Positions 49,101 to 55,100 of a DNA stretch of 64,000 nt are shown here, in pieces. The position numbers were made by a program, and so were the translations under genes. Below the pieces are notes generated by a model. The model was not told the DNA's origin. It worked only from the letters and a program-made list of their open reading frames with translations, and ran no database searches. The stretch's first letter is position 1. Each line of letters starts with the position of its first letter. The DNA is from Odiellus spinosus (taxonomy: Eukaryota > Arthropoda > Arachnida > Opiliones > Phalangiidae). The stretch lies in the NCBI GenBank assembly GCA_963920705.1, contig OY987231.1, positions 24,192,200 through 24,256,199 of the forward strand, read 5' to 3'.

Positions 49101-52100
49101 CTTATCGCCGGCGTTATCGTCGTCCATTAGAGCTCCGTAGGCTCCTTTCCGTAACAAGTCTTCAATTTCCTTCTTGGAAAGCGGTTGATTTCCTCCAGCC
49201 AACAAACTTTCCTTCGAAGTGTTCATGGATTGAAGAACCGCTTTATCCAAACCTAATTTCAAACTGGCCTTGTCAAACATTTCACGTTCGTAAGTGTTGC
49301 GACAAATTAGACGATAAACTTTGACCGATTTAGACTGCCCAATCCTATGACATCGAGCTTGAGCTTGTAAATCATTTTGGGGGTTCCAATCAGAATCAAA
49401 AATGATAACGGTATCAGCGGCGGTTAAATTTATTCCTAGTCCACCGGCGCGAGTACACAGAAGAAACACAAACCGATCAGAGTCTGGTTTGCAAAATCTA
49501 TCAATAGCCGCTTGCCTCAGATTTCCTCTGACTCTTCCGTCAATTCTTTCGTAAGGATATCTCCGCTGAACCAAATAATCTTCTAAAATGTCCAAACATC
49601 TCACCATTTGAGAGAAAACTAAGACTCTGTGACCATTTTCTTTCAATCTCGGCAGCAATTTGTCGATTAAGACGAGTTTACCGGACGCTTGAACCATCGC
49701 CGTTAAAGATCCTTCGTCTCCCTCGTTACGATGTTGATTTCTATAATCAGCCTGTATTTGTTCCTCGGCTCCTAAGATCAAAAACGGATGGATGCAACAT
49801 TTTCGTAACTCCATCATCGTGTTCATTAAGTTTGGGGTATTGGCTGACGTTCCTCCTTTCGATAAGAAGGCGAAGTTGCGCTCCAAAATGGCCCTATAGT
49901 ATTTCTTTTGAATATTTGTAAGTTCCACTTCCACGATGGTCTCTTCTTTGGGGGCCAAACTTTTTTCTACGTCTTCTTTCAGACGTCTCAACATCATTGG
50001 TTTTAAAAGCTAATGAAGAATTGGGTTTTGAAATTACAATATACGAATTCTCAAAAGGATAAAACTAAGACAAGTAACGCGTTATTGTTATTTAGCTTAA
50101 AAATGTTATTACAGCTTACAACAACAAAGATTTCTCGTTAATTTACAGTTGGATAAGGGCGCTAACCCTTCTTTTCCAAGAAGAAACCTAGTTAATTTGA
50201 CTAGGGACTACAATCTAGAGAAAACTTTGAGATATTGAGTACCTTAACATTGCGGCTCAGTATTTGTTTTTCATCTCTTAGAATTAAGTGGGCAAAAACA
50301 ATGTCACCTCAAAATTCTCAGAATTAGCATGTAAATCATCATAGCCTGGGTTTGCGTATTTTATATCTCAATTAACTTAGTTTAAACATTAACTTCCTCA
50401 TTAATCTATGTAAAAATTTCTCCTAGTCATCAAGTCTAGCCAAGGCTTAGCTAACTACAACTAAATTGTCTATTTTCCACCCAAAATTTCATTATATATA
50501 AAGAAGATTTTACTGTATTGACAAATTAAAATGTAGCCAGGCTTAACAGGCATTTTAAAAATATCAACATTGTTAATTGCAAATTAACTGATTATCACTC
50601 CCGTAACAGGGTTGCCACACTTTCTTCATATTCAAATTCCCTGACTTTTTAAAATATCTTCAAATTCCCAGACTTTTCCCTGACTTTTTTGGCTCATTTT
50701 CAAATTCCCTGACTTTTCACGGTTTTCCCTGACCTGGGGCAACCCTGTGTACTGACAATTTTGCAAACTGGGACTATGCCTAATTGTAAATTAAGTAGAA
50801 ACTAAATGTTTTCACTCATATTAGTACATTGCTAATAGATTAAAATTTAAAATAAACTCACTCCTCGCCTTCATTAACTCTAAAATATATAGAAAATTAA
50901 AAACTCACGGCTTTTAGTTTATCAACTTGAGACTCTGTTTTAAGATCCCCAAACTCTTCCATAAACGCTTCGGTCGATTGAAACCGCGCCGGTTCCAAGA
51001 AGTTCAACAAACTGAAGAGTTCCTCGACGTTATTTTGCAAAGGAGTTCCCGTCAGTAAAACGCGATGTTCCTAATTCAAGGTTAATATTAATTGAAAAAC
51101 TTGAAGAAACGTTGAAAATAATTAAAGAATGACAAATTGGCTTCAGGTTTTGCAGTTTTAACTCACGGAATTAAATCGGCAAACACAATGTCACGATAAA
51201 ATTCTCGGTATTAGCATGGCAAATCATCACCGCCTACTTTACGCGAGTTAAACAAAAATCTCTTACCATATTAAGTAGTCTAAGTCCTTCTTGAAGCTTG
51301 CAGTTACGATTTTTAAGTCTGTGCGCTTCGTCAATGATGCAACATTTCCAAGGAATCTCCCTTAATTCCAAACAGTCGAATAAAACTATCTCGAACGTCG
51401 TGATCATTACTTGAAATTTGTAAATCTCCGTGATACGTTGACCCTTTAAAGTTAATTCTTAGAAATTAGAACAAAAACTTTCCTAAGCCTAAAATATAAG
51501 TAAAGAAGGCCTTACATTTTCATTTTTATAATACATTTCGTATTCTTGAATCATATTACGACTGGGGGAGCTTTAAATAAATAATCAAGAATAAGTTTGA
51601 AAAATAGTTAATACCTTTAAAGCGTTCGAAAACTTACCTTCCGTGATAAGTAATGACGTTAAGATCCGTCCACGTTTCAAATTCCCGCTGCCAATTTCCA
51701 ATAGTGGAAAGAGGCGCGATGACTAAGAAGGGACCCGGGATTCCGTAAATGTTGATTTCATTCAAGAAAGTTAACGATTGGATAGTTTTTCCCAAGCCCA
51801 TTTCGTCAGCCAAGATACAATTTTGACCGTGATACCAACAGAAGGTTAGCCAACTCAAACCTTCCAGTTGATATTCTCGAAGCGTATTTCCGCCTTTGTA
51901 AACGGGTGATTCTTTCATTTTGGCCCATTCTGTTGGTTTTGGTCGTTTCTTGTGCTAAAATTAACATTATAGATTCGGTTAAATAATAGAGTTAATATTC
52001 CACTCTAATTCGGCAATTTAGTTAATGTAATTATTATGTTTTAAGCCAACATAATGGTATTCAATTGGAAGACGGTAAACAAAACTTAAGAACTGGTGAC

Positions 52101-55100
52101 TTGGTTTGAGGAAACACTTAACATTGTGGCTCAGGTGCTGTTTTTCATCTCTTAGAATTAAGTGGGCAAAAACAATGTCACCGCAAAATTCTCAGAATTA
52201 GCATGTAAATCATCATAGCCAAGGTTGCTTTTATCTCTCCCCACACTGAAATAAGTCCTCAATAGCCTTTTAGGCTCATTTTTTCAAATTCCCCAAAGTT
52301 TTGGGCTCATTTTTTCAAATTCCCCAAAGTTTTAGGCTCAATTTTCAAATTCCTTAATTTTTAAGGCTCATTTTTCAAATTCCCCAACCTTTTAGGGTCA
52401 TTTTTCAAATTCCCAACCTTTTTTAAGCTCATTTTTCATTTCCAGATTGTATAAATGATGTAATATTTTCAAGAGGGATTGGTTTATATTGATTTGCCCA
52501 ATTTCAGATCTAAATGAGCCTCGTAAAAATGATCAATAAGACTAAATACAAGATCCTCAAGAAGTTAATTCGGGGGGTGAAGTTAAGTATAAGAAAACTG
52601 ACCTTCCATTTATCCTTGGGTGGTGGATCTCTGAACTTGTAAAAATGAGCGATTTTGGCAGGATCGAGATCATCTTCCAACTCCCAAGTGCTTTCTTCGT
52701 AAGAGAGAGCTCTCCACTTGACCAAATAATGCCGAGTTCGTTTGACATTTTTCTCTTCGTCCTTCGTTTCTCCCTCATCGTCGGCCGAATTGTTCTGAGC
52801 TTTCTTTCCTTTTCCTAATTTGATCTCTTTACATTTTCGACGTTTCCCATTAGCGGTTAAGGTATCAATTTCCTTCGTTTCTTTATCTTTATCTTCTTCA
52901 GTAGTTGGTTTCTCCGAGACTGCCGCCAATTTTTCAATTTTATCATCTAAATCCAATTTGGTATGGCATTTTTCCGTCGTATTACCTTCGAGCTTAGTTT
53001 CGCACTCTTTAGATACGTTTTTATCTTCAATTTCATTGGGTTTATCTTTAGGGTTAGCTATATCTTCTTCGGGTTTAGTTTTATCTTCAACCGTCTTATC
53101 CGTATCATCAACTGCCAAATCCATTTTATCTTCAACGGGTGTATCTATTTTATCTTTACCATTATCTTCAAGAGCCGGATCTATTTTATCTTTACCATTA
53201 TCTTCAAGAGGCGGATCAATTTTATCTTTACCATTATCTTCAACGGGCGTATCTTTTTCATCTTTACCTTTATCTTGAAGAGGCGTATCTTTTTTACCTT
53301 TATTCTTAGCATCGGCTTTACCCTTTTTGCCCTTAGGTTTTTCTTTCGGTTTATCAACTGGTTTATCTTCGGGCTTATCTTCAATTTTATCTTCAGTTTC
53401 TTCTTTAACGGGTAAAGGTAAAGATTCGGCGGTTTGTTCATTATCTTCTTTGACTTCTTCCTTAACTTTATCTTTATCATCTTTTATCTCGGCATTTTCA
53501 TCCTTCTTATCTTTATCTTCTTGTTTCTCGTTATCTTCGACTTTTTCTTTCTCATCCGGGACCTTGACATCTTCGGTGGCTTCTACTACAGATTCTTTAT
53601 CTTCCATCTTATCATCAATTTTCCCTTCCATTTCGGCTTCAACTTTGGCTTCTTCTTTGATCAGTTCTATCTCAACTTCGACTTTGGATTCTTCAGGATC
53701 GATAACTTCTACCGTCTCAGTTACGTCCAATATCCTATCGACTTCGATATAGTCTGGATTGAACAGATCTTCCTCCAGCTAAGGTATTAAGATAAATTAA
53801 TAGGGTTGTAAGAGCAATTGTTTTAGGTTTAGTTGCGATAAGACTTTGCAAAACTGCCTCAGATCTTGGTAGTAGTAGTATAAACACTCATAAACATCTC
53901 GTTAGGATATAAAATCATCATTGGCCAACAAAGTCTTATAACAATACTAATTAAGACGAGTAAAGCGTAATTTTTAATCAATTAAAATCAGTTAAAAATA
54001 CCCAAAACAAATTTAAAACTCATCAATCAATTTATGGTTGATAAACTAAGTTGTGATTTGGTCAAGCTAAGCCTAACTTAATTTCAATACAATTAATTAA
54101 CCAGGTTGGGATTTGGACCCGCTAAGCCTAACTCCATTTCAATACAGTCTCATTGATTAACAGTTAATTAACCAAGTTGCAATTAGGTCACGCTAACAAA
54201 TTGTAAGCCTAACTTAATTTTAATACAATTAATTAACCAAGTTGCAATTTGGACCAGCTAAGCCTAACTCCATTTTAATACAGTCTCATTGATTAACAGT
54301 TAATCAACCTGGTTGTGATTTGATCACGCTAAGCCTAACTTAATTTTAATACAATTAATTAGCCAAGTTGGGATTTGGATCCGCTAAGCCTAACTCCATT
54401 TTAATACAGTCTCATTGATTAACAGTTATTAACCAAGTTGCAATTAGGTCAAGCTAAGCCTAACTCCATTTTAAAAGGGATAAAAATTACAAAAAAAAAA
54501 AAACTAGCCTACACGCTAGTTAAAAGCCAAAAACTCAACTCTGTTAATCAACAAGACACCTTTTGTTATTAACAAGTTTTGTCGTTGTTTTAAAGCTCCT
54601 AATCTATCAAAAATTACATTACAAGTCTTCATTATCCCTCAAAAATAAAAAAAAAAAACGATAGGTAATGAAAAATTTAATACTTACGAAATCAAAGATA
54701 TTGCTGATACTTTCGCGTTTTTGTCGATAACGTCTTATTTTTTGGATAACTCTTCTATCGCATTTTTCAAGTTCATCTTGAGTACGCCACTCGCAATGAA
54801 GGTAAGATCTGCGAAGAAAGCGATATTTTGGTAAGACTAACGTATTTTTGGTTTTGAATTTTGGGTACAATGAAAACAATTGGAAGAATAGAAGAATGAA
54901 CCTTACAAGTTTTTGTATTTGACGAAATATTCTTCAACTTCCACCATTTCCGGAGGTCCTTCGTTATTATCGTGACCTTCACCCCCGGATAAGTCTTGTT
55001 CCCTTTGAGCCGTTCGAAAACCCAAGATCTTTTCGACCACCATCGTATCATCGGTGTTATTCTATCAAAAATAAAAGTCCATTTTTGATCCTCAGTCCAA

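Follow-up and report, generated by a model that had tools for sequence, protein, structure and literature searches.

The DNA analysed here is a stretch of 64,000 nucleotides (nt), referred to as the window, from contig OY987231.1 of Odiellus spinosus (Opiliones; assembly GCA_963920705.1, positions 24,192,200 to 24,256,199 of the forward strand); unless stated otherwise, all positions are counted from its first letter. The minus strand of the window carries a gene that appears to encode a chromatin remodeller of the Kismet/CHD6-9 class (hereafter kismet), and three introns of this gene each contain a box C/D element with a guide complementary to U6 RNA around A53. The best explanation overall, to which we assign a probability of roughly 0.85, is that the three elements are intronic box C/D small nucleolar RNAs (snoRNAs) which would guide 2'-O-methylation of U6 A53, within a kismet gene hosting nine such guides. 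On sequence grounds, the assignment of this function to the U6 elements is strong.

Six exons surround the U6 elements, all on the minus strand: 52603-53778 (chromodomain, from a Pfam match and exon joining), 51638-51954 (start of the SNF2 ATPase), 51516-51570, 51267-51443 and 50909-51070 (SNF2 ATPase), and 48507-50009 (end of the ATPase, and Helicase_C). The exons at 51638, 51267 and 48507 were recognised by domain search and exon joining, those at 51516 and 50909 by exon joining and a search with the joined ATPase. The borders of the six exons are GT/AG and, when joined, they form one continuous open frame. Minus-strand open frames matched Chromo (E-value, E, of 2e-9), SNF2 (E 1e-23, 1.2e-11 and 3.2e-15) and Helicase_C (E 7.7e-25). 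Once the ATPase exons were joined, the SNF2 match extended over positions 1-289 of 290 (E 7.1e-81). The host gene has a chromodomain, an SNF2 ATPase and Helicase_C in that order, as in class III of the CHD proteins (Kismet/CHD6-9). The nearest Protein Data Bank (PDB) match of the ATPase exon was CHD1 (E 4e-90), with no CHD6-9 chain among the best 60 of 75 matches. An open frame at 35762-36013 (minus strand) contains half of a BRK domain (Pfam BRK, E 9.7e-4, under the cut-off), for which the best PDB match was the CHD7 chain 2v0f (E 0.0011). The sequence supports a remodeller of the Kismet/CHD6-9 class, an assignment that draws on this half domain and on the host gene sequence itself, which we take to be of that class.

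The three elements lie on the minus strand at 52128-52220 (U6a, copy 1), 51139-51234 (U6b, copy 2) and 50254-50346 (U6c, copy 3), within the introns 51955-52602 (GT donor, AG acceptor, frame open across it), 51071-51266 and 50010-50908 (both from exon joining, with GT/AG borders), respectively. In the protein, the three introns fall ahead of HKKRPKP, between LLNM and EHRV, and between KLKA and LLKP. A preliminary description of this DNA had reported C/D elements at these positions, in introns 8, 11 and 12 of kismet: boxes and guide were found in each by direct reading, and the spacing of the three introns, taken in relative terms, fits the six-exon joining. All three copies have a box C (TGATGA) and a box D (CTGA), closed by terminal stems of 4, 3 and 3 pairs (GGCT/AGCC in U6a). 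The guide of U6a is CATGCTAATT, and in every copy the 9-mer CATGCTAAT stands exactly one base before D', in agreement with the earlier reading. D' is CTGA in the outer copies U6a and U6c and CCGA in the middle copy U6b, whose C' box (GTGAGTTAAA) resembles the Rfam consensus. The window holds three exact occurrences of CATGCTAAT, all on the minus strand and all inside these elements; in shuffled windows the mean count was 0.42, and three were reached in 1 of 100 shuffles. The combination of TGATGA with the guide within the first 20 nt was found at three places, and 60 simulated windows contained none.

The genome of Odiellus contains three strong U6 genes of its own (117.2, 113.4 and 113.4 bits). 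In one of them (L021) the segment AGAAGATTAGCATGGCCCC places an A at position 53, and the printed strands of the other two (L022 and L023) carry the same segment as its reverse complement. The complementary segment on which the preliminary description relied is present in the species' own U6, and in this register A53 lies opposite the fifth base before D' and pairs with it in each copy. The duplex with U6b is the longest, with 11 Watson-Crick pairs from A50 to C60; those with U6a and U6c run from A50 to G58, with 9 Watson-Crick pairs each and a G49-U wobble. Two degenerate U6 copies were also seen (L024 and L025, on C5 and C18, about 55 bits), and two of the strong genes are no more than 10 kb away from L025.

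Across the 443 Mb genome, the exact pattern TGATGAN{1,8}CATGCTAAT occurs in three places, all in kismet introns, and a scan of viral contigs for stray eukaryotic DNA with the guide motif found none. An origin of the U6 guides from an abundant repeat was rejected: genome-wide, blastn with the 110 nt of copy 1 returned no place besides copies 1 and 3, a search too coarse for copy 2, which more diverged copies elsewhere could also escape.

In C/D snoRNAs, the guide RNA leaves the spliced intron, binds the C/D proteins and positions fibrillarin on its target. The guide RNAs would similarly be released from spliced kismet introns, and would be bound and protected by C/D proteins. Each U6 guide would then pair with the U6 stretch AUUAGCAUG, setting the fifth base before D' on A53, and fibrillarin, directed by the D' guide, would methylate the 2'-OH of A53 (or 28S bases, for the other guides described below), while an internal D'-C' hairpin may draw D' and C' together. 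Expression, processing and methylation are predictions here, as is the age of the association.

The internal helix between D' and C' was paired in 25 of 27 cells across the three copies, and two of its nine pairs show a change of both bases, one from G-C to A-U and the other from G-C to C-G; when the partners were slid, pairing fell to 26-56%. Identity between copies 1 and 3 is 93% over 110 nt, and that of copy 2 to the others is 79% over a 63-nt core (82-84% over 62-68 nt by blastn), so that the duplication within the gene proposed earlier is supported. The accompanying claim that in the diverged copy only the boxes and the U6 element had escaped drift is wrong at these identities, and GTGACATTGTnTTTGCC is unchanged in all three copies.

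The second guide, before box D, is probably idle, because the preceding bases differ between U6a and U6c. No match of at least 10 bp was found for the D guides of U6a and U6b in the ribosomal DNA (rDNA) stretches examined, among which 18S was not included; that of U6c gave one 10-bp match in an unclassified stretch (L033) and at best 7 pairs in the parts of 28S scanned. A working second guide was rejected, given the lack of such rDNA matches for copies 1 and 2 and the unconserved bases before D.

At the curated cut-offs of Rfam, a search of the window gave no match, the cut-off of RF00377 (snoU6-53) being 36 bits. Full-length alignment of this model was nevertheless obtained for all three copies, at 28.5 (copy 1), 29.0 (copy 2) and 25.1 bits (copy 3), with E of 0.0015, 0.001 and 0.012 on 2.1 kb, 0.045, 0.031 and 0.37 over the whole window, and 0.07, 0.05 and 0.6 over the genome. 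The U6 copies were the three best of the 10 RF00377 places listed genome-wide (55 of 12859 first-look candidates were scored), and none of the four examined among the other seven (L012, L013, L014 and L017) had the guide. The covariance-model check suggested by the preliminary description is consistent with its assignment in the extent of the alignments and falls short of it in their scores. The likeness to RF00377 (snoU6-53/MBII-28) lies in this whole-model alignment and in copy 2, which has the consensus UUGCCAUGCUAAUAC and GUGAGUUAAA; the difference lies in the scores. Plant snoR53Y (RF01279) shares the common guide core and scored 23.8 bits with copy 1, below the 28.5 of RF00377; at E<=10, neither copy 2 nor copy 3 was among its listed matches.

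Other introns of kismet contain another six C/D guides, likewise on the minus strand, which are new relative to the preliminary description. Three of them (Fa, 53853-53929, with ACTACTACCAAGAT before CTGA; Fb, 47146-47224; Fc, 45674-45762) have a common target in 28S, and three (Za, 47594-47669, with TTCACCTTGGAGAA before CTGA; Zb, 46178-46256; Zc, 41438-41520) form a second 28S kind. Fb and Fc were recognised by C/D scans and 28S pairing; Zb is 89.8% identical to Za over 108 nt, and Zc is diverged from its kin outside the D guide. The guides of Fa, Fb and Fc form 15 Watson-Crick pairs and one wobble with the species' own 28S, and those of Za, Zb and Zc form 13, 13 and 14 pairs; in all six the complementarity (13-16 bp) abuts box D or sits one base off. 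Both target stretches are also present in L032, within a segment matching the eukaryotic large subunit (LSU) model at 1200 bits. Genome-wide, the exact guide-plus-D motifs of the F and Z kinds are each present at three places, every one of them in kismet, and the reversed motif at 0.

A generic C/D scan gave seven matches, every one of them on the minus (host) strand; its stem threshold excludes Za and Fc, which were both recovered by a second scan. At a stricter pair count, this second scan yielded four matches, again confined to the minus strand. In E-value mode, Rfam matched Za, Zb and Zc in the window, all under cut-off (for Za, a weak match to Afu_294 at 34.5 bits, below the cut-off of 43). 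In the 20 kb that adjoin the window 5' of kismet, a non-exhaustive scan (targets U6 and parts of 28S, stem weight of at least 7, a setting that misses Za, Fb and Fc) found no further guide. Each of the nine guides lies in a separate kismet intron, the splice sites around the F and Z elements having been read by eye only. By its sequence, kismet looks like a nine-guide host with three kinds of guide (U6-A53, a 28S U and a 28S C) in three copies each, and the copies of each kind would have arisen by intron-to-intron copying. Multi-snoRNA host genes, such as the UHG genes, carry one snoRNA per intron, and the nine kismet introns with one C/D element each resemble them; the difference is that the host here is a long protein-coding gene for a chromatin remodeller, with three kinds of guide in triplicate.

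Intronic C/D RNAs have a usual range of distances to the 3' splice site. By manual count, the end of box D lies 80 nt (Fa), 72 nt (U6b), 81 nt (Za) and 73 nt (Fc) from this site, and the 72 nt of U6b is inside the usual range. The distances are longer for Zb (about 120 nt), Zc (about 110 nt) and Fb (about 440 nt). Between Fb and its 3' splice site, at 46996-47109, lies an inverted-repeat element resembling a miniature inverted-repeat transposable element (MITE), with 12-nt ends GTTGCCACGATA, which would account for part of the unusual distance of Fb.

Several observations weigh against the U6-A53 assignment. All three copies score below the curated RF00377 cut-off, for which reason the claim made here is one of the same working and likely homology rather than formal Rfam membership; at E<=10, RF00377 also has matches, none above cut-off, in 11 of the 14 bacterial and archaeal genomes used as controls, so the score alone is insufficient. 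The reversed-pattern control gives 8 genome matches, compared with 3 for the true C-box-plus-guide pattern, and the weight against chance lies in the clustering of the copies within 2 kb and in their full anatomy, not in the genome-wide count. The covariation in the D'-C' helix comes from three sequences, from which the helix was drawn by eye, and was equalled in 55 of 500 shuffles (166 of 500 for pair types), and single-copy folds were barely better than those of shuffled sequence (z -1.3, -0.7 and -0.3). The D' of U6b (CCGA) departs from the CTGA of U6a and U6c, and the distance to the 3' splice site is 176 nt for U6a and 247 nt for U6c.

Human SNORD8 and SNORD9 (mgU6-53 and mgU6-53B) are listed under CHD8 in tables of PMC6466398 and PMC6023535, and PMC7960923 assigns human U6 Am53 to SNORD8/9, so that the parallel drawn in the preliminary description is documented. 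Like them, the Odiellus elements would target A53 of U6 and have a host gene in the class of CHD8; the guide core CAUGCUAAU and the boxes are also shared, as judged from the Rfam consensus rather than the human sequences. They differ in number (three copies here, two in human), in a body that falls short of the model's 110 positions and bears little likeness apart from guide and boxes, and in a host that also carries two kinds of 28S guide. SNORD8 and SNORD9 may sit in introns of CHD8 that follow the ATPase exons, in which case the introns used would differ from those of Odiellus; this is given no weight.

The presence of the guide in CHD class III introns, both here and in human CHD8, would on balance reflect an old association. 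Since the exact C-box-plus-guide motif is found only in kismet, any real tie would be to the CHD6-9/Kismet class and not to CHD genes generally. A bond between guide and host that predates the split of vertebrates and arthropods is slightly favoured. By a narrow preference, the guide would have stayed in the CHD6-9/Kismet gene since that ancestor, moving between its introns only, with a three-by-three bank of guide RNAs built up in the present lineage and the exact motifs nowhere else in the genome. According to a paper on tunicates (PMC5006418), snoU6-53 is among the families lost in Didemnum relative to its kin, and on that basis the family predates vertebrates. If true, the bond would be unusually deep, from vertebrate to arthropod, against the host drift expected from Hoeppner and Poole (PMC3511168). 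A splicing-RNA guide kept in one remodeller class is testable in any published animal genome, and the three-by-three arrangement would offer a natural case for intron-to-intron copying of snoRNAs and for the copy number needed, and bears on whether loss of kismet disturbs U6 and ribosomal RNA methylation.

The same elements may be genuine U6-A53 guides whose sharing of a host class between kismet and CHD8 is a coincidence, the guide having entered independently a broadly expressed kismet that collects snoRNAs; this is a serious alternative, which we hold to be the less probable one. It accords with the two further kinds of guide in kismet, which make the gene a general snoRNA host and take some force from the shared-host argument, and with the likeness of copies within each kind, as intron-to-intron copying predicts. 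Hoeppner and Poole (PMC3511168) describe the intronic position of old snoRNAs as unstable across eukaryotes, and according to PMC3349704 vertebrate snoRNA genes may switch introns or hosts. Against coincidence, if there are hundreds of hosts (an estimate), the same host class is unlikely to have been hit by chance, and no donor locus was seen, the exact motif being in no other gene of the genome. Among titles and abstract openings of literature on kismet and snoRNAs, there was no report of snoRNAs in kismet introns; no insect U6-A53 guide appeared among the literature matches listed, a small part of the relevant papers, and the main text of PMC4300560 (mosquito non-coding RNAs) mentions neither U6-53 nor kismet.

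It is rather unlikely that only some of the copies work, U6b being either a decaying relic, as its D' would suggest, or the working ancestor of which U6a and U6c are recent, poorly placed copies. The traits of U6b are mixed in a way that suits this proposal, CCGA standing beside the longest U6 duplex, an Rfam-like C' and the most favourable distance to the 3' splice site, and U6a and U6c have CTGA but sit far from that site. The conservation of C, D, guide and internal helix (with its two compensatory changes) in all three copies argues against it. Finally, functionless sequence, arisen by chance or derived from a repeat, is very improbable: a short repeat family adjoins copy 1 and the scores lie under the Rfam cut-off, but blastn with copy 1, which copy 2 escapes, reveals no abundant repeat, and the A53 register is exact in three of three copies.

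Other features of the region were recorded as follows. A repeat of about 30 nt (GGGAATTTGAAAAATGAGCC-like) is present in tandem beside copy 1 (52249-52438) and also at 50637-50709, 48327-48379, 55748-55795 and 62826-62875. A hairpin at 47857-47925 (minus strand) gave a weak mir-601 match (27.7 bits, cut-off 98) and is probably an inverted repeat, and a tandem repeat at 56762-57270 is open in several frames on both strands. Open frames at 20361-22919 (minus strand) resemble Lon protease by motifs that we take to be characteristic. Elsewhere in the genome, positions 8952-9054 of L032 matched U2 small nuclear RNA at 57.9 bits, close to an incomplete 28S unit of C18, where the 28S pieces of the L032 region look fragmentary. 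TTAGG is the arthropod telomere unit and, as fits an arthropod, runs of five such units gave 7381 + 2915 overlapping matches in the genome (control 0); those listed were spread along C1 and not confined to its ends.

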